Source: an uncultured Pelagibacteraceae bacterium
Lineage (GTDB): Bacteria; Pseudomonadota; Alphaproteobacteria; Pelagibacterales; Pelagibacteraceae
DNA: 64,000 nt
Assembly: GCA_902627735.1 (NCBI GenBank)
Contig: CACOKI010000002.1
Coordinates: 36,673-100,672, forward strand
Direction: 5' to 3'
Part shown: positions 20,681 to 29,227 of the stretch, one piece after another
Layout: each line of letters opens with the position of its first letter
Position numbering within the stretch: the stretch's first letter is position 1
The notes under the pieces: generated by a model
Told to the model about the DNA's origin: nothing
Seen by the model: only the letters and a program-made list of their open reading frames with translations
Databases searched by the model: none
Made by a program: the position numbers and the translations under genes

Positions 20681-22162
20681 ATGAAAAAATTTATAATTTC
20701 AATTGATCAAGGAACTACTTCTAGTAGAGCTGTATTATTTGATCTTAAAGGTAAACCAATATTTATTTCACAATTAGAATTTACACAATACTTCCCAAAG
20801 GACGGTTGGGTTGAACATAATCCAGAGGAAATTTGGTCAACAACAAAAAAAGTATTAATAAATGTAATTAAAAAAAGCAAAAGTTTAAAGGGTAAAATCT
20901 TAACAATAGGTATAACTAATCAAAGAGAAACAACCATTCTTTGGGATAAACATACAGGCAAACCAGTTTACAATGCAATCGTATGGCAAGATAGAAGAGC
21001 AGTTGAATACTGTAATAAACTTATCAAACAAAAAAAAGAAACAATTATTTATAATAAAACAGGCTTGTTAATCGATGCATACTTTTCTGCAACAAAAATT
21101 AAATGGATAATAGACAATGTTTCTAAGGCTAAAAAATTATTAAAACAAAAAAGACTTTTATTTGGCACTGTAGATTGTTTTTTGTTATGGAGACTTACAG
21201 GAGGCACAAATCATTCAACAGATGCAACAAATGCTAGCCGTACAATGTTATTTAATATTGTAAATAATAAATGGGATAAACAGATCCTAGATATACTAAA
21301 AATACCTGAACATATATTACCTGAAGTTAAAGATTGTTCAGATGATTTTGGTCACACTGATCCTAAGATTACAGGAGAGTCTTTTTCGATTACTGGTATG
21401 GTTGGTGATCAACAATCTGCAACGATAGGACAGTGTTGTTTTGAGCCAGGATCATTAAAAAGCACTTATGGCACTGGAGCATTTGTTTTATTAAATACTG
21501 GAAATAAAGTCATTTATTCTAAAAATAGACTTTTAACTACAATCGGTTACAGAGTAGATGGAAAAACCACTTATGCTTTGGAAGGTTCAATATTTGTTGC
21601 AGGAGCAGGGGTTCAATGGTTAAGAGATAAAATTAATTTTATTAAAAAAGCATCTGATACAGAAAAAATTCTTAAAAGTCTTGAGACAAATAAAGGTATT
21701 TATTTGGTACCAGCGTTTACAGGTTTAGGAACTCCATATTGGAACGCAAAATCAAGAGGGGTGTTGAGTGGATTAACAAGAGATACTGGAATTAAAGAAA
21801 TTGTAAGAGCAACAGTAGAGTCAGTTGCTTATCAAACTTATGATTTATTTGAGGCAATGAAAAATGATGGTTTGAGACCTAAGATAGTTAGAGTAGATGG
21901 TGGTATGGTAAAAAATAATTGGTTTTCTCAATTTCTGAGCGATATTGTTAATGTGAAAGTTTTGAGACCAAAAGTAGACGAGACAACTGCACTTGGAGCT
22001 GCATTTATGGCAGGACTTAAAATTGGAGTTTATAAATCTTTAAAAGATATTTCAAAAAATTGGTCGTTAGATAAAAAATTTTCTCCACGAATGAAAAAAT
22101 CAAAAAGAAAATTAAACGTTCAAGGTTGGGGAAAGGCTATAAAACGAAGCCTAATCACTTAG
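20681..22162 (+). CDS. glpK: Glycerol kinase
   Basis: A 493-residue FGGY-family kinase making glycerol 3-phosphate from glycerol and ATP in the cytosol. The N-terminal SIDQGTTSSRAVLFD phosphate loop, the WQDRRAVEYC substrate motif, GMVGDQQSATIGQ, STYGTGAFVLLNTG and GLGTPYWNAKSRG are typical of GlpK, and FGGY near-C-terminal features (VDGGMVKNNWFSQFLSD, TTALGAAFMAGL) are present. It opens the glycerol operon and precedes the transporter binding-protein gene by 93 bases. Confidence 0.94.
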   Translation: MKKFIISIDQGTTSSRAVLFDLKGKPIFISQLEFTQYFPKDGWVEHNPEEIWSTTKKVLINVIKKSKSLKGKILTIGITNQRETTILWDKHTGKPVYNAIVWQDRRAVEYCNKLIKQKKETIIYNKTGLLIDAYFSATKIKWIIDNVSKAKKLLKQKRLLFGTVDCFLLWRLTGGTNHSTDATNASRTMLFNIVNNKWDKQILDILKIPEHILPEVKDCSDDFGHTDPKITGESFSITGMVGDQQSATIGQCCFEPGSLKSTYGTGAFVLLNTGNKVIYSKNRLLTTIGYRVDGKTTYALEGSIFVAGAGVQWLRDKINFIKKASDTEKILKSLETNKGIYLVPAFTGLGTPYWNAKSRGVLSGLTRDTGIKEIVRATVESVAYQTYDLFEAMKNDGLRPKIVRVDGGMVKNNWFSQFLSDIVNVKVLRPKVDETTALGAAFMAGLKIGVYKSLKDISKNWSLDKKFSPRMKKSKRKLNVQGWGKAIKRSLIT

Positions 22163-22255
22163 TTCAACTAAAAAGTGAAAACAATTTTAACTCTTTACAC
22201 GAGTATTAAATTCTTGTTAGACTTTATTTTTAAAACACAAACAAGGGGAAAAATA

Positions 22256-23974
22256 ATGCTAAATAAAATAAATAAGATCCTTGCTTTTGTAGTTACATTC
22301 TCAATATTTGTTACATCTTCTTATGCTGATGCTATTAAGAAGTATGCAACAGGTGAGTTTAGTCTTTCTACTTTATCGGAGAAAGAAAGAATTAAGGAAC
22401 TAAAATGGTTTCAAAAAGCTGCAAAGCCTTTTAAAGGAATGGAAATAAATGTCCTTTCTGAAACAATTCCTACTCACGAATATGAGTCTAAAACACTAAC
22501 AAAAGCATTTGAAGAAATAACAGGAATAAAAGTAAATCACCAACTTTTAGGAGAAGGTGAGGTTGTTCAAGCTGTTCAAACACAAATGCAAACTGGAAGA
22601 AACTTGTATGATGCTTACATAAATGATTCTGATTTAATTGGTACTCACTCAAGACTTCAACTTGCTGTAAATTTAACAGACTGGATGGCTGGTGAAGGTA
22701 AAAAAGTAACTTTACCAACACTAGACGTTGATGATTTTATTGGTAAATCATTTACAACAGGTCCAGATGGAAAACTTTATCAGTTACCTGATCAACAGTT
22801 TGCTAATCTTTATTGGTTTAGAAAAGATTGGTTTGATAAACCTGAAATCAAAAAAGGTTTTAAAGCTAAATATGGTTATGATTTAGGTGTACCAGTTAAT
22901 TGGTCTGCATATGAAGATATCGCTGAATATTTTACAAATGATGTAAAAAATATTGATGGCGTGAGAGTTTATGGACACATGGACTATGGTAAAAGAGCTC
23001 CTGACTTAGGTTGGAGAATGACTGATGCATGGTTATCTATGGCTGGTGCAGGTTCTGTTGGAAAACCAAATGGTGTTCCAGTTGATGAATGGGGTATCAG
23101 AATGGAAAAAGGCACATGTAATCCAGTTGGAGCAGATGTAGCTAGAGGTGGAGCTGCAAATGGTCCAGCGGCAGTGTATGCAATCAGAAAATGGGATGAA
23201 TGGTTAAGAGCTTATGCTCCTCCAGGTGCTGCAAGTATGGACTTTTATCAGTCTCTACCAGCATTATCATCTGGTAACGTTGCTCAGCAAATATTCTGGT
23301 ATACAGCGTTTACTGCATCGATGGTTGCTCCGAAGAGTTCAGGTAATAAAACAGTTGATGACAATGGAAATCCTTTATGGAGAATGGGTCCATCACCAAA
23401 GGGACCTTATTGGGATGAAGGTATGAAGCTTGGTTATCAAGATGCTGGTTCATGGACTTTGTTTAAGTCTACTCCAGTTGATAGAAGAAAAGCTGCATGG
23501 TTATATGCTCAATTCGTTGTATCAAAAACTGTATCTCTAAAGAAAAGTCATGTTGGTTTAACTATTATAAGAGATAGTGATATCAATCATAAATCTTTCA
23601 CTGAGAGAGCTCCAAAATTAGGTGGATTAGTAGAATTTTACAGATCGCCTAACAGAGTATTATGGTCACCAACAGGTATAAATGTTCCGGATTATCCGAA
23701 ACTTGCTCAAATCTGGTGGCAACAAATTGGAGATGTAAACTCAGGTGCGTTTAGTCCACAAGAAGCGATGGATCGTCTTGCTGAAGAGATGAACTTAGTA
23801 ATGTCACGTATGGAAGCTGCTGATAAAGCAAACAATACATATGGTGGATGTGGTCCAAGATTATCTAAGCCGAAAGGTGCAGATTATTGGTTAGGTCAAC
23901 CAGGATCACCAAAAGCTAAGCGTAACGAGAAACCACAAGGTAAAACAGTTCCTTACGAAAAAGCTTGGAACTAA
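22256..23974 (+). CDS. glpV: Glycerol ABC transporter, substrate-binding protein (GlpV-like)
   Basis: A 572-residue periplasmic binding protein. The start at 22256 is chosen because AAGGGG precedes it and a signal peptide follows at once (LAFVVTFSIFVTSSYADA); upstream in-frame codons lack a ribosome site. The large, aromatic-rich mature domain (MDYGKRAPDLGWRMTDAWLS, GLGTPYW-like loops absent) and its linkage to two ATPases, two permeases and a DUF2160 membrane protein match the GlpSTPQUV glycerol importer known from Rhizobium. A terminator/attenuator follows at 24001. The glycerol substrate is inferred from glpK and the gpsA-like gene in the same run. Confidence 0.83.
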   Translation: MLNKINKILAFVVTFSIFVTSSYADAIKKYATGEFSLSTLSEKERIKELKWFQKAAKPFKGMEINVLSETIPTHEYESKTLTKAFEEITGIKVNHQLLGEGEVVQAVQTQMQTGRNLYDAYINDSDLIGTHSRLQLAVNLTDWMAGEGKKVTLPTLDVDDFIGKSFTTGPDGKLYQLPDQQFANLYWFRKDWFDKPEIKKGFKAKYGYDLGVPVNWSAYEDIAEYFTNDVKNIDGVRVYGHMDYGKRAPDLGWRMTDAWLSMAGAGSVGKPNGVPVDEWGIRMEKGTCNPVGADVARGGAANGPAAVYAIRKWDEWLRAYAPPGAASMDFYQSLPALSSGNVAQQIFWYTAFTASMVAPKSSGNKTVDDNGNPLWRMGPSPKGPYWDEGMKLGYQDAGSWTLFKSTPVDRRKAAWLYAQFVVSKTVSLKKSHVGLTIIRDSDINHKSFTERAPKLGGLVEFYRSPNRVLWSPTGINVPDYPKLAQIWWQQIGDVNSGAFSPQEAMDRLAEEMNLVMSRMEAADKANNTYGGCGPRLSKPKGADYWLGQPGSPKAKRNEKPQGKTVPYEKAWN

Positions 23975-24049: not shown

Positions 24050-25114
24050 ATGAGTCTAGAACTTAAAGGAATAGAGAAAAAAATTGGAGAAGAGACTCAT
24101 ATTTATACCACAGATCTTAAATTCGAAAAAAATACAATCAATGTTTTGTTAGGCTCAACATTAGCAGGCAAGACAACTCTAATGCAAATAATGGCTGGTT
24201 TAGACAAACCTACAAAAGGTGAAATTTGGTTCAATGATCAAAACGTAACTGGAGTAAAAGTTCAAAAACGAAATGTATCAATGGTCTATCAACAGTTTAT
24301 AAATTACCCAAATTTTACAGTTAAAGAAAACATTGCATCTCCACTAAAAATTACTGGAATAGATAATCAAGAAATAGATCAAAGAGTTAGTAAAGTAGCT
24401 GATTTATTAAAATTAACTCCAATGCTTGATAAAAAGCCAAATGAGTTATCGGGAGGTCAACAACAAAGAACAGCTTTAGCAAGAGCTTTGGTAAAAGACT
24501 CAGATTTAATTCTGTTAGATGAGCCTTTAGCTAATTTAGATTTTAAATTAAGAGAGGAACTTAGAGAAGAATTACCAAAATTATTCAAAGATAGAGACTG
24601 TATAGTTGTGTATGCAACAACTGAACCATCTGACGCTTTATTGATTGGAGGTTACACAGCCACTTTATTAGAGGGAAAAGTTATTCAGCACGGTAAAACT
24701 CTGGAAGTTTATAATAAACCAAACAACTTAGACTCTGCAAAAGTATTCAGTGATCCTCCTATGAATATTGCAAATATAAATAAGAAAGGGGAAATTTGCT
24801 CCCTATTAGCTGACAATGTGACTTGGAAAACAAACTTAAATTTAAGAGATGGGAACTACAAAGTTGGTATTAGACCACACAATATTACAACATATAAAGA
24901 GGGAAAAAATTCAATTGAAATTAGTGGGAAAGTTTTAATTTCTGAATTAAGTGGATCTGAAAGTATGATTCATTTTACTAACGGAGATTTGAACTGGGTA
25001 TCATTATCTGAAGGTATTCATCAAAAGGATGTTGGAGAAGAAACAAAATTATTCATGAATTCTGATGAGTTCTTGTATTTTGATAACAACGATAGATTGG
25101 TAGGCAATGTCTAA
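24050..25114 (+). CDS. glpS: Glycerol ABC transporter ATPase 1 (GlpS-like)
   Basis: A 354-residue MalK/UgpC-type ATPase. Walker A GSTLAGKTT satisfies GxxxxGKT but differs from the usual PSGxGKST. Q-loop MVYQQF, signature LSGGQQQRTALARAL and Walker B LILLDEPLANLD are intact. The H-loop is lost: YATTEPSDAL has threonine where the switch histidine (THDxxEA) is expected. A C-terminal regulatory beta domain (about 240-354) is present. It overlaps glpT by 8 bases, and the two presumably form a heterodimer in which their defects fall at one composite site. Confidence 0.87.
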   Translation: MSLELKGIEKKIGEETHIYTTDLKFEKNTINVLLGSTLAGKTTLMQIMAGLDKPTKGEIWFNDQNVTGVKVQKRNVSMVYQQFINYPNFTVKENIASPLKITGIDNQEIDQRVSKVADLLKLTPMLDKKPNELSGGQQQRTALARALVKDSDLILLDEPLANLDFKLREELREELPKLFKDRDCIVVYATTEPSDALLIGGYTATLLEGKVIQHGKTLEVYNKPNNLDSAKVFSDPPMNIANINKKGEICSLLADNVTWKTNLNLRDGNYKVGIRPHNITTYKEGKNSIEISGKVLISELSGSESMIHFTNGDLNWVSLSEGIHQKDVGEETKLFMNSDEFLYFDNNDRLVGNV

Positions 25115-26177
25115 AATTACTCTCCAAGATTTAAGTCACAGTTATTTACAATCTCAAAATAAAGATGAGGACTGGGCAATAAGAAATGTAAATATTGATT
25201 GGCAGGACGGAGGTGCTTATGCCTTGTTAGGACCTTCTGGTTGTGGAAAAACTACTCTTTTAAATATTATTTCAGGGTTAATAAATCCAACAAAAGGAAA
25301 GATACTTTTTAATGATGAAGATATAACAAAAAAAAATCCAGTAGAAAGAAACATAGCTCAAATATTTCAATTTCCTGTGATTTACGATACTATGACAGTG
25401 TTTGAAAACCTAGCATTTCCACTAAGAAATAGACAAATTCCTGAAGATGAAATTAATAATAAAGTAAATGAAATTGCTGAGATGTTAGAACTTACATCTA
25501 CTTTGAATAACAGAGCTTCAGGTTTAACAGCTGATGGAAAACAAAAAATTTCTCTAGGAAGAGGATTAGCAAGGTCAGATGTAAATGTAATAATGTTTGA
25601 CGAGCCACTAACAGTTATTGACCCACACCTTAAATGGATCTTAAGATCAAAATTAAAAGAACTTCATCAAAAAATTAAAAGAACAATGATATATGTTACA
25701 CATGATCAAACGGAAGCTCTTACTTTTGCGGATCAAGTAGTCGTAATGCATGATGGTCAAATAGTTCAGACAGGAACACCTGTAGAATTGTTTGAGAAAC
25801 CAAAGCATACATTTGTTGGTCATTTTATAGGCTCTCCAGGAATGAATATTTTGTCTTGTCAAATAAACAACGGTTCAGTTGCAATAAATGGCACAAAAAT
25901 TGAAACTTCAAATTCTAAAATTGGTACTTCAAATTTTTCAAAAATAGAATTAGGCATTAGGCCAGAATTTATTTCCTTTGATAAGAAGGGTTTACCAGTA
26001 AAAATATTAAATGTGAGTAACACCGGAAAAAATAAGATTATAGAAACGGAAAGTGATGGTGGAAAAATTAAATTAATTATTAAAGCTGCAGAAAAAGTAC
26101 CTGAAGGATCAGCTTTCTTAACTTTTAAAAAAGATTACACATATGTTTATGGAGATGACTGGATAATAGAAAAATGA
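25107..26177 (+). CDS. glpT: Glycerol ABC transporter ATPase 2 (GlpT-like)
   Basis: A 356-residue ATPase paired with GlpS. Walker A GPSGCGKTTLL, Q-loop AQIFQFPVIY, Walker B VIMFDEPLTVID and H-loop YVTHDQTEAL are canonical. The family signature is degenerate: GLTADGKQKISLGRGLA stands where LSGGQxQRxxxARAL should be. It has the C-terminal regulatory domain of the MalK group. It overlaps glpS by 8 bases and the next permease gene by 4. Not to be confused with the enterobacterial glycerol-3-phosphate antiporter also named GlpT. Confidence 0.86.
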   Translation: MSKITLQDLSHSYLQSQNKDEDWAIRNVNIDWQDGGAYALLGPSGCGKTTLLNIISGLINPTKGKILFNDEDITKKNPVERNIAQIFQFPVIYDTMTVFENLAFPLRNRQIPEDEINNKVNEIAEMLELTSTLNNRASGLTADGKQKISLGRGLARSDVNVIMFDEPLTVIDPHLKWILRSKLKELHQKIKRTMIYVTHDQTEALTFADQVVVMHDGQIVQTGTPVELFEKPKHTFVGHFIGSPGMNILSCQINNGSVAINGTKIETSNSKIGTSNFSKIELGIRPEFISFDKKGLPVKILNVSNTGKNKIIETESDGGKIKLIIKAAEKVPEGSAFLTFKKDYTYVYGDDWIIEK

Positions 26178-27040
26178 ATAAAACTGTAAATCAAAAGGCC
26201 TGGTTTTTTGTAATACCTGTTTTTGTTTTAGTTGCATTTAACGCAATTATTCCTCTTATGACAGTTGTTAATTATGCATTTCAAGAAACTTTTGGAAATA
26301 ATCAATTCATGTGGGAAGGAACAAGATGGTTTAAGCAAATATTAGTTTCTGAAAGATTTCATGCAGCACTTGGACGACAAGTACTATTTACATTAATAAT
26401 TTTAGTCATACAGATACCTCTTGGAATTTTTATTGCTCTTAACATGCCAAAAGAAGGAATTGGTGTTCCAATTTGTTTGGTATTGATGTCTATGCCACTT
26501 TTAATTCCATGGAATGTAGTAGGAGCAATGTGGAATATTTTTGCTCTTCCAGATATTGGTTTTCTTGGTCATTCATTAAATGCAATGGGATTCGATTATA
26601 ATTTTACACAACAAAGTGGAGATGCATGGTTCACAACAATATTAATGGATGTTTGGCACTGGACTTCATTAGTAGTTTTATTGTCATATGCAGGACTAAG
26701 ATCAATTCAACCTGCTTATTATCAAGCAGCAGAAATTGATGGTGCAACAAGGTGGGCAGTATTTAGACATATTGAACTTCCTAAAATGAAAAAAGTTTTA
26801 ACTATTGCAATTTTACTAAGATTCATGGATAGCTTTATGATTTATACTGAGCCTTTTGTTTTAACTGGTGGTGGGCCTGGTAATGCAACAGCTTTTTTAT
26901 CTATCGATTTAGTTAAAATGGCATTGGGACAGTTTGATTTGGGACCTGCTGCTGCAATGTCTTTAATTTATTTTTTTATAGTATTAACTGTTTGTTGGGT
27001 TTTCTATAATCTAATGATGAGAAATGAGAGTAAATCATGA
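26174..27040 (+). CDS. glpP: Glycerol ABC transporter permease 1 (GlpP-like)
   Basis: A 288-residue inner-membrane permease of the MalF/UgpA type with six predicted helices. The ATPase-coupling EAA loop is AAEIDGATRWAVFRHIELP near residue 200. It opens with a basic segment and helix WFFVIPVFVLVAFNAIIPL. It overlaps glpT (upstream) and the second permease gene (downstream) by 4 bases each, so all transporter parts are made in step. Confidence 0.88.
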   Translation: MNKTVNQKAWFFVIPVFVLVAFNAIIPLMTVVNYAFQETFGNNQFMWEGTRWFKQILVSERFHAALGRQVLFTLIILVIQIPLGIFIALNMPKEGIGVPICLVLMSMPLLIPWNVVGAMWNIFALPDIGFLGHSLNAMGFDYNFTQQSGDAWFTTILMDVWHWTSLVVLLSYAGLRSIQPAYYQAAEIDGATRWAVFRHIELPKMKKVLTIAILLRFMDSFMIYTEPFVLTGGGPGNATAFLSIDLVKMALGQFDLGPAAAMSLIYFFIVLTVCWVFYNLMMRNESKS

Positions 27041-27837
27041 AAAAATTTAAGTGGTTAGTACCTACAATTTATATAATTTTTTTAATGTTACCAATTTATT
27101 GGTTATTAAATATGTCATTCAAAACTACAACTGAAATTATAAATACTTATACATTGTGGCCACAAGAATTTACTTTGGATAATTACAAGAAAATTTTTAC
27201 TGATAGTACTTGGTACACAGGATATCTTAATTCAATATATTATGTTGTATTAAATACATTTATATCGGTTGCAGCTGCACTTCCAGCTGCGTACGCTTTT
27301 TCAAGGTACAAATTTTTAGGAGATAAACATCTATTTTTCTGGCTTTTAACTAATAGGATGGCACCTCCCGCAGTGTTTGCATTGCCATTTTTTCAGTTTT
27401 ATTCATCAGTAAATTTATTTGATACGCATGTAGCTGTAGCTCTCTCGCATTGCTTATTCAATATACCTTTAGCTGTTTGGATTTTAGAAGGATTCATGTC
27501 TTCAGTGCCAAAAGAATTAGACGAGACTGCTTATGTAGATGGTTACTCGTTTTGGAAGTTTTTTTTCAAAATTTTTATCCCAACAATAACTGCTGGAATA
27601 GGAATTACTATGTTTTTCTGTTTTATGTTTTCGTGGGTAGAATTATTACTTGCAAAAACTTTAACAGCTGTCGCTGCAAAACCTATTGCAGCTACAATGA
27701 CTCGAACTGCAAGTACCTCAGGTTATGAACTAGGATTGTTAGCAGCTGCTGGAAGTTTAACTATTGTGCCTGGTGCGATAGTTATTTATTTTGTAAGAAA
27801 TTATATTGCGAAAGGTTTTGCGTTAGGAAGAGTATGA
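27037..27837 (+). CDS. glpQ: Glycerol ABC transporter permease 2 (GlpQ-like)
   Basis: A 266-residue permease of the MalG/UgpE type. It has an N-terminal helix (LVPTIYIIFLMLPIYWLLNM), an AAALPAAYAFSRYKF segment typical of MalG-like proteins, and the EAA loop ETAYVDGYSFWKFFFKIFIP. It forms the membrane channel with the preceding permease and overlaps the downstream small membrane gene by 4 bases. The symbol follows the Rhizobium transporter naming, not the glycerophosphodiesterase of that name. Confidence 0.88.
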   Translation: MKKFKWLVPTIYIIFLMLPIYWLLNMSFKTTTEIINTYTLWPQEFTLDNYKKIFTDSTWYTGYLNSIYYVVLNTFISVAAALPAAYAFSRYKFLGDKHLFFWLLTNRMAPPAVFALPFFQFYSSVNLFDTHVAVALSHCLFNIPLAVWILEGFMSSVPKELDETAYVDGYSFWKFFFKIFIPTITAGIGITMFFCFMFSWVELLLAKTLTAVAAKPIAATMTRTASTSGYELGLLAAAGSLTIVPGAIVIYFVRNYIAKGFALGRV

Positions 27838-28193
27838 TATTTACTAATTCATATGCCGCAAACTCTTGGGATTCTGTTGCCAAATCACAAGAAAAAGGAT
27901 TTTTTGACTTTGAATTTATTACTTGGATGGCATGGACATGGCAAACTGCAGCTTTTTTTTTGTTTATTGTTCTTTGTTTTGTAGTCATGATTATTTGGGA
28001 GAAGAAAAAGCCTGGAGGTAGTCCAAGGAAAGGTATTTTAGGATTAGATACGACAAGAGGAGATAGATTGTTCATATCATTGTTAAGTTCTGCTTATATT
28101 CATTTAGGATGGCTAGGACTTATCGGTCCAATGTTGTGGATTGCAACAATAATTTCTTTTATTTTTGCAATTTTTGTTTTTAGGTTTGTTTAA
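27834..28193 (+). CDS. glpU: Small membrane protein of the glycerol transporter (DUF2160, GlpU-like)
   Basis: A 119-residue protein with helices around residues 34-54 (TAAFFLFIVLCFVVMIIW), 77-92 and 96-116. RGDRLFISLLSSAYIHLGWLG and KPGGSPRKGILGLDTTRGDR are typical of the DUF2160 family found in glp ABC operons. The N-terminal WMAWTWQTAAFFLF lies just before the first helix. It overlaps the second permease gene by 4 bases. It probably associates with the permease pair, but its mechanism is not known. Confidence 0.82.
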   Translation: MIFTNSYAANSWDSVAKSQEKGFFDFEFITWMAWTWQTAAFFLFIVLCFVVMIIWEKKKPGGSPRKGILGLDTTRGDRLFISLLSSAYIHLGWLGLIGPMLWIATIISFIFAIFVFRFV

Positions 28194-28198
28194 ATTAT

Positions 28199-29227
28199 AT
28201 GAAAAAAATAGTGATTATTGGAGCAGGTGCAATGGGTTCAGCTTTTTCTGTTCCATGTGCTGATAATTCTCACGAAGTATTTTTAGTTGGTTCTTTTTTA
28301 GAAGACGATTTAATAAATGAAATTAATAAATTAAACAATTTTCATCCTATATTAAAATGTCAACTGCCAAAAGAAGTTAAAGTAATTAAATTCTCAGAAT
28401 TTGAAAAGGAAATTAACAAGAAAATTGATTTATTAGTTGTTGGTGTAAGCTCCAAAGGTATTGATTGGATTGGAGATGAAATATCAAAATTTTATAATAA
28501 AAACACTAATATACTTCTATTAACAAAAGGTTTAACTATAATTGAAAATAGATTTGAAACTTTAGCTGAAAAATTAAAAAAAATTTTAATTAAAAAAGGT
28601 ATTAATGACTCAAAAATTTCTGCAGTAGGGGGACCTTGTCTAGCAAACGGTTTGGCAAATAGAATAAACAGTAGCGTAGTTCTTGCTAATGAAGATATCA
28701 ATATTGTTAGCGAAATTGGTAAAATAATTTCCACTAGTTATTATTCTACAGAATATTCAGATGATTTAATAGGAGTTGAGGTTTGTGCAGCTACAAAAAA
28801 CATTTACTCTATGCTAATAGGGGCCTCAGAGGGCTTAAGCAGCAAATCTCAGAGTAATGAGATTAAAAATAAATATTATTTAAATACTGCTGCCTCTTTA
28901 GCCTACAAAGCAGTTTCAGAGATGAAAAATTTAACAAAAAAATTAAGTGGCAAACAAGAAACGGCATATGGTTTGGCAGGACTGGGAGATTTATATGTAA
29001 GCTCTGCTGGGGGAAGAAATAGTAAGATGGGATATTATTTAGGTCAAGGACACCTATTTAAAGATGCAAAAGAAAAATTCATGAAAGAAGTTACTGTTGA
29101 AGGAGCAGATCTTGCTTTTGCTATTGGTTCAAAAATTTTAAAAGAATTTAATAAAGAAGAATTCCCACTATTATTAAGTATGGTAGATTGTATTTTTAAC
29201 AATAAGAAATTAGAAATTAATTGGTAA
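28199..29227 (+). CDS. gpsA: NAD(P)-dependent glycerol-3-phosphate dehydrogenase (GpsA-like)
   Basis: A 342-residue dehydrogenase. The N-terminal Rossmann motif VIIGAGAMGSAFSVPCADN binds NAD(P); LLLTKGL, VGGPCLANGLANR, VEVCAATKNIYSMLIG (with the catalytic lysine) and GLAGLGDLYVSSAGGRNSKMG follow in GpsA order. It ends the glycerol operon, five bases after the DUF2160 gene, implying that glycerol 3-phosphate made by GlpK is oxidised to DHAP (or equilibrated for lipids) by this soluble enzyme rather than by membrane GlpD, which is absent here. It is more divergent than biosynthetic GpsA, so a catabolic paralogue is plausible. Confidence 0.82.
   Translation: MKKIVIIGAGAMGSAFSVPCADNSHEVFLVGSFLEDDLINEINKLNNFHPILKCQLPKEVKVIKFSEFEKEINKKIDLLVVGVSSKGIDWIGDEISKFYNKNTNILLLTKGLTIIENRFETLAEKLKKILIKKGINDSKISAVGGPCLANGLANRINSSVVLANEDINIVSEIGKIISTSYYSTEYSDDLIGVEVCAATKNIYSMLIGASEGLSSKSQSNEIKNKYYLNTAASLAYKAVSEMKNLTKKLSGKQETAYGLAGLGDLYVSSAGGRNSKMGYYLGQGHLFKDAKEKFMKEVTVEGADLAFAIGSKILKEFNKEEFPLLLSMVDCIFNNKKLEINW

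Follow-up and report, generated by a model that had tools for sequence, protein, structure and literature searches.

The two ATPases GlpS and GlpT, encoded in a glycerol operon of an uncultured Pelagibacteraceae bacterium, probably form a heterodimeric MalK-type (type I) glycerol importer with one hydrolytic ATP site and one degenerate site that presumably still holds ATP. Judged from the motifs of its two subunits, this glycerol pump probably runs on a single working ATP site. The asymmetry between GlpS and GlpT is a fixed trait of the family and extends across several other major bacterial groups as well.

The glycerol operon and its two ATPase subunits

The operon lies in the window, the whole stretch of 64,000 nucleotides that we analysed, and contains the gene set expected of a GlpSTPQV-type glycerol importer, i.e., GlpV, two ATPases, two permeases, a DUF2160 protein and a nearby glpK (Table 1). 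The name GlpT is used here in the sense of the rhizobial glpSTPQV nomenclature, for an ABC ATPase, and not for the glycerol-3-phosphate antiporter. The same gene set, adjoining a glycerol kinase, is present in the GlpSTPQV systems of Rhizobium leguminosarum VF39 and Cupriavidus metallidurans; the gene order differs, being K-V-S-T-P-Q-U in the window and D-S-T-P-Q-U-V-K in rhizobia. The two-ATPase operon Rmet_2229-2234 of C. metallidurans resembles the rhizobial glycerol transporter and has been linked to glycerol (PMC7912956). Such work on relatives, together with the linkage to glpK, points to glycerol as the likely substrate of the transporter encoded in the window (PMC7912956). The genome is Pelagibacter-like; among the relatives found, the closest is L001, from an uncultured cell of the Pelagibacteraceae (99% in GlpV).

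Table 1. Genes of the glycerol operon and sequence motifs of its two ATPases; positions are those of the window.
Feature	Positions	Strand	Remarks
glpK, glycerol kinase	20681..22162	+	above curated cut-off, GlpK NF000756/TIGR01311
glpV, substrate-binding protein	22256..23974	+	Pfam SBP_bac_1; listed ORF starts at 22175
glpS, MalK-type ATPase, 354 aa	24050..25114	+	LSGGQ kept; H-loop His and A-loop aromatic missing
GlpS A-loop position, Ile12	24083..24085	+	F/Y/W in MalK-type proteins; aligned to 1v43
GlpS Walker A GSTLAGKTT, aa 35-43	24152..24178	+	Lys retained; STLA unusual
GlpS signature LSGGQ, aa 133-137	24446..24460	+	139/139; would complete the canonical site of GlpT
GlpS Walker B/D-loop LLDEPLANLD, aa 155-164	24512..24541	+	Asp-Glu intact; DEP 139/139
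GlpS H-loop position, Thr191 replacing His	24620..24622	+	motif YATTEP
glpT, MalK-type ATPase, 356 aa	25107..26177	+	H-loop kept; signature degenerate
GlpT A-loop Tyr13	25143..25145	+	invariant in a 26-sequence sample
GlpT Walker A GPSGCGKTT, aa 42-50	25230..25256	+	canonical (alignment)
GlpT signature column LTADG, aa 140-144	25524..25538	+	degenerate (alignment)
GlpT Walker B/D-loop MFDEPLTVID, aa 163-172	25593..25622	+	Glu intact; D-loop altered
GlpT H-loop His199	25701..25703	+	intact; YVTHDQ; 137/137 readable
glpP, permease	26174..27040	+	Pfam BPD_transp_1
glpQ, permease	27037..27837	+	Pfam BPD_transp_1
glpU, small membrane protein DUF2160	27834..28193	+	PF09928, E 6e-34

Both permeases are of the importer type, and an exporter-type membrane domain is present in neither GlpP nor GlpQ. 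Directly after the glycerol operon follows a gpsA-like gene for an NAD-type glycerol-3-phosphate dehydrogenase (28199-29227); rhizobial and Roseobacter glycerol operons carry glpD inside the cluster instead of the gpsA-like gene (L113, L116). A DUF2160 protein is also encoded in a Paracoccus rhamnose-type operon (L117:5968-11518) together with a single canonical UgpC-type ATPase and, because of this pairing, cannot be tied to an asymmetric pair of ATPases.

The glpS and glpT open reading frames of the window share 8 bases, and both products have the MalK-type architecture in which an ABC nucleotide-binding domain (NBD) is followed by a C-terminal regulatory domain. AlphaFold2 models of GlpS (pLDDT 91.6) and GlpT (pLDDT 88.9) gave MalK-type ATPases as their top fold matches, and fold and regulatory domain are common to them and the CUT1-type ATPases, e.g., E. 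coli MalK of MalFGK2 (Foldseek TM of about 0.8-0.9). E. coli MalK differs in forming a homodimer, whose two sites are identical and canonical, whereas neither GlpS nor GlpT combines an LSGGQ signature with the H-loop histidine as each canonical MalK-type subunit does. The Walker A Lys and the Walker B Asp-Glu are intact in both subunits; that the catalytic Glu is retained in both had gone unmentioned in the initial sequence-only reading.

Conservation of the complementary motifs

Glycerol operons were sampled with the neighbouring GlpV as bait (query: the part from position 22256), and hence independently of the ATPase motifs. The search yielded 80 loci in species genomes and 88 of 399 Pseudomonadota genomes, and a further one around a Desulfobacterota centre yielded 6 of 148 genomes; loci on plasmids were fetched in addition. 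The subset that was read fully comprises 138 loci with both ATPases (48 from Pelagibacterales and 90 others, including Nonomuraea), to which the window adds the 139th pair.

The complementary pattern, a GlpS with LSGGQ and without the histidine next to a GlpT without LSGGQ, was present in all 139 aligned pairs. At the H-loop position of GlpS, Thr (118 pairs), Ser (19) or Ala (2) was found and His never, and the replacement letters are conserved as T/S-E/D-P. In GlpT, the H-loop His is retained in each of the 137 pairs in which it can be read, two fragments stopping before the motif, and its signature column reads mostly L[T/S]AD, with positions 3-4 conserved as A/P/S-D and Asp in the fourth position of 137/139 sequences. 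The sequence-only reading had described an intact LSGGQ and a missing histidine for GlpS, and an intact H-loop and a degenerate signature for GlpT; these descriptions held for the window and for the family. It had further asked for the co-occurrence of both losses in many operons and named homologous pairs that keep both motifs as the observation that would speak against it; the losses coincided throughout, and no such pair was among the 139.

Two further changes go beyond that reading, and both fall into the degenerate site. The A-loop column of GlpS, occupied by Phe in 1v43, holds a non-aromatic residue (V, I, R and others) in 138 of the 139 pairs, and the D-loop of GlpT reads T-V-I/V-D in every pair vs. 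S/G-N/A-L/I-D in the comparison proteins. The Q-loop Gln of GlpS is retained, and the G and K of its Walker A motif are invariant (139/139).

The search around the Desulfobacterota centre contributed another three pairs (L191, L192 and L194), which fit the pattern, L194 with the variant letters VSGGQ and YATPES, and LNAAD. A full glycerol importer operon is present in Nonomuraea (Actinomycetota; L111:3619-5824), where the GlpT signature reads LDAGR and the GlpS H-loop YSTADP, and the rhizobial pairs L112 and L113 carry the lesions seen in the window. Every complete operon read contains both glpS and glpT. GlpV occurred without the pattern only as an orphan gene lacking an adjoining ATPase (L153-L156) or on a short contig. 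At 51-58% identity, the four orphans are paralogues of GlpV, and neither an ATPase nor a permease gene lies within 8 kb of them. Two of the genomes concerned, G372 and G386, carry the orphan as a second copy, with the full operon located elsewhere. MalK-type ATPases whose genes have no adjacent MalK-type partner are canonical in both motifs with few exceptions, namely L315 (MSGGQ) and L313, which was later placed in a two-ATPase operon.

The uniform occurrence in 139 pairs rules out chance, an isolated mutation or a sequencing error. It goes back to a single ancestral change, or to a small number of them, preserved by selection, and does not stand for 139 independent events. An alignment artefact is ruled out as well: the motif columns are unshifted, and each signature position leads into the usual helix in the models.

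A proposed dimer with one complete and one degenerate composite site

ABC proteins bring their NBDs together with two ATP molecules as the glue and open them again by hydrolysis. The operon, the motifs, their conservation and the fold of each subunit were observed directly, and it is established ABC architecture from which we infer the heterodimer and the make-up of its sites. Site 2 would be built from the A-loop, Walker A and B motifs, Q-loop and H-loop of GlpT and the LSGGQ and D-loop of GlpS, and would be complete. Site 1 would consist of the Walker A and B motifs and the Q-loop of GlpS, without aromatic residue or histidine, facing the LTADG and TVID of GlpT, and would consequently be degenerate. 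All four groups of changes (A-loop and H-loop of GlpS, signature and D-loop of GlpT) map to site 1 and none to site 2, so that the cis motifs of one NBD and the signature of the other are altered within one composite site, as is generally the case in degenerate sites. The proposal that both defects meet in one composite site while the other is complete is thereby supported, the motifs occupying identical columns of a common alignment.

Our working model envisages a single importer in which GlpS pairs with GlpT as its ATPase subunits. Once they have closed around ATP as a sandwich dimer, site 2 would be complete and would hydrolyse ATP; site 1 most likely holds ATP·Mg as a part of the dimer, with hydrolysis being slow or absent. 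Glycerol-loaded GlpV would trigger closure, after which site 2 would hydrolyse one ATP and the dimer would reset, at a presumed cost of one ATP per cycle rather than two. Both the nucleotide occupancy of site 1 and the one-ATP stoichiometry are predictions of this model. Slow hydrolysis at site 1 is possible since, unlike in degenerate exporter sites, the catalytic Glu is intact there, and the loss of the adenine-stacking aromatic residue together with the signature Asp could leave site 1 often empty. In the maltose transporter, a single mutant MalK has been reported to cut transport severely; operation with a single site would therefore need compensating changes.

The degenerate letters are conserved, and GlpS never departs from the Lys of Walker A or the Asp-Glu of Walker B, which indicates that site 1 is under selection. 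If both sites hydrolysed ATP, Thr/Ser191 of GlpS and the conserved Glu192 would have to stand in for the histidine, and the ADxKQK loop of GlpT would act as an alternative signature contacting the γ-phosphate. That the changed positions are conserved and not random agrees with this, as does the retention of the Walker A Lys, Walker B DE and Q-loop Gln in GlpS. We nevertheless consider two working sites unlikely: the adenine-stacking residue of GlpS and the D-loop of GlpT are altered too, an Asp in signature position 4 would face the γ-phosphate, and related systems (see below) lose the Glu, or the Gln and His, at the same site, which fits lost hydrolysis better than replacement. The opposite extreme, a nucleotide-free site 1 that serves as a purely structural contact while ATP is bound at site 2 only, could draw on the absence of the A-loop aromatic residue from 138/139 GlpS proteins and on the replacement of the signature by ADx; an unused site, however, would have no need for a Walker A Lys and a Walker B Asp-Glu that are invariant in 139/139 sequences, and we regard this arrangement as quite unlikely.

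The lesions would never meet if GlpS and GlpT formed separate homodimers, as is usual for MalK-type transporters with one ATPase gene, or if they paired with another ATPase. The homodimer alternative, already raised in the sequence-only reading, is possible in principle, but found no support here. As deduced from their motifs, GlpS2 would lack the histidine twice and GlpT2 the signature twice, so that neither homodimer would possess a complete site and the heterodimer would possess exactly one; moreover, glpS and glpT overlap and occur together in every complete operon read. As for another partner, none of the 14 ABC ATPase family hits in the 88% complete genome is an additional UgpC/MalK-like carbohydrate-type ATPase, the wider MalK group being represented otherwise by L208 alone, which has PotA-like motifs. 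Hence, we judge separate dimers or a foreign partner to be highly improbable, and a GlpS-GlpT heterodimer with one hydrolytic site remains our preferred reading.

Degenerate sites in related transporters and their significance

The pairing of a canonical with a degenerate composite site, the latter altered in its signature and cis residues, is known mainly from export pumps (TM287/288, TmrAB, TAP, the ABCC family and Pdr5). These degenerate exporters differ from GlpST in their membrane domain and in that the Walker B Glu is usually lost, whereas GlpS retains the DEP motif throughout. In Pdr5, the H-loop His is lost as well, the signature reads LNVEQ, and restoration of the degenerate site is reported to alter coupling or lower transport (PMC7756269). 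As a correction to the sequence-only reading, degenerate sites also occur in importers: the importer ATPases RbsA and NupO have been noted to contain one degenerate site (PMC11466899). Degenerate importer sites are not new per se, and GlpSTPQV is a known transporter type. RbsA and NupO differ, however, in that two NBDs are fused in one chain, in belonging to another importer type, and in the loss of the Walker A Lys from one NBD; glpS and glpT are separate genes, and the Lys is kept in both products.

Judged by its motifs, the branched-chain amino-acid importer LivF/LivG may be asymmetric too. The histidine is absent from LivF (EQN) in all loci sampled and kept in LivG, which resembles the GlpS/GlpT split. 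This ATPase family is another one and the case is less clean: the LivG signature is LSYG/LAMG in 4/7 and otherwise often LSGG, and the D-loops of LivF and LivG are both altered. In LivF (L243-L250, L213, L217), the Q-loop Gln is often replaced by Glu.

Other two-ATPase MalK-type importers, reached by way of GlpS-like hits, fall into four classes. Both subunits are near-canonical in class A (about 15 operons, e.g., L234, L270 and L273). In class B, the signature of the first subunit reads LSVN; the partner is intact in five operons (e.g., L253 and L254), and its Walker B Glu is changed to Asp (DDP) in L223 and L237. Class C (L199, L251, L252, L308-L310) combines a first subunit with a GGS/SAS/GAS signature and an NLE D-loop with a second subunit in which the Q-loop Gln is replaced by Glu/Asp and the H-loop His by Pro, and in class D (L321), one subunit reads VSEGE and its partner carries a His to Pro exchange. 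Throughout classes B to D, the lesions lie at one shared composite site, with the cis residues being lost by the second-type subunit. We count it in favour of the proposed mechanism that this is the same composite site as in GlpST. An asymmetry unique to GlpST is ruled out by classes B, C and D and by LivF.

In a tree calculated without the motif columns, the second-type subunits (GlpS, A2, B2, C2 and D2) cluster together (94/90), as do B1 and C1 (100/92); GlpT groups with B1/C1 in one tree (97/90), but not in the tree without the motif columns. On the latter tree, two changes are needed for the loss of the histidine and two for that of the signature, and a single origin is compatible with the data in both cases (AU p 0.33 and 0.11, respectively). 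The existence of class B suggests that the signature was lost first. GlpST might tentatively be viewed as the best-conserved member of an old heterodimeric MalK-type branch in which one site decayed stepwise, leaving one ATP per cycle, although we hold this to be somewhat less probable than its opposite. The steps would then have been the loss of the signature (class B, L253/L254), followed by a Glu to Asp exchange in the partner, by the loss of Q- and H-loop residues, or by that of A- and H-loop residues.

In the literature that we searched, of which most subscription papers were not a part, we found no description of site asymmetry in GlpS/GlpT or in two-ATPase MalK-type importers. Whether one or two ATP molecules are hydrolysed per cycle of a type I importer is a long-standing question, and most studies of it have introduced mutations into one of the two halves of a symmetric homodimer. 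GlpST provides a natural and deeply conserved experiment, with two ATPase genes, one site intact and the other degenerate, and the catalytic Glu in place. A ready comparison series is available in the related importers with two ATPases, whose sites range from intact through half-decayed to fully decayed; should the stepwise decay be true, this series would make it possible to examine which residues remain necessary in a site that no longer hydrolyses ATP. If the glycerol importer indeed operates with a single site, each glycerol taken up may cost these bacteria one ATP instead of two, a saving that could matter for marine cells limited by carbon, e.g., Pelagibacter.
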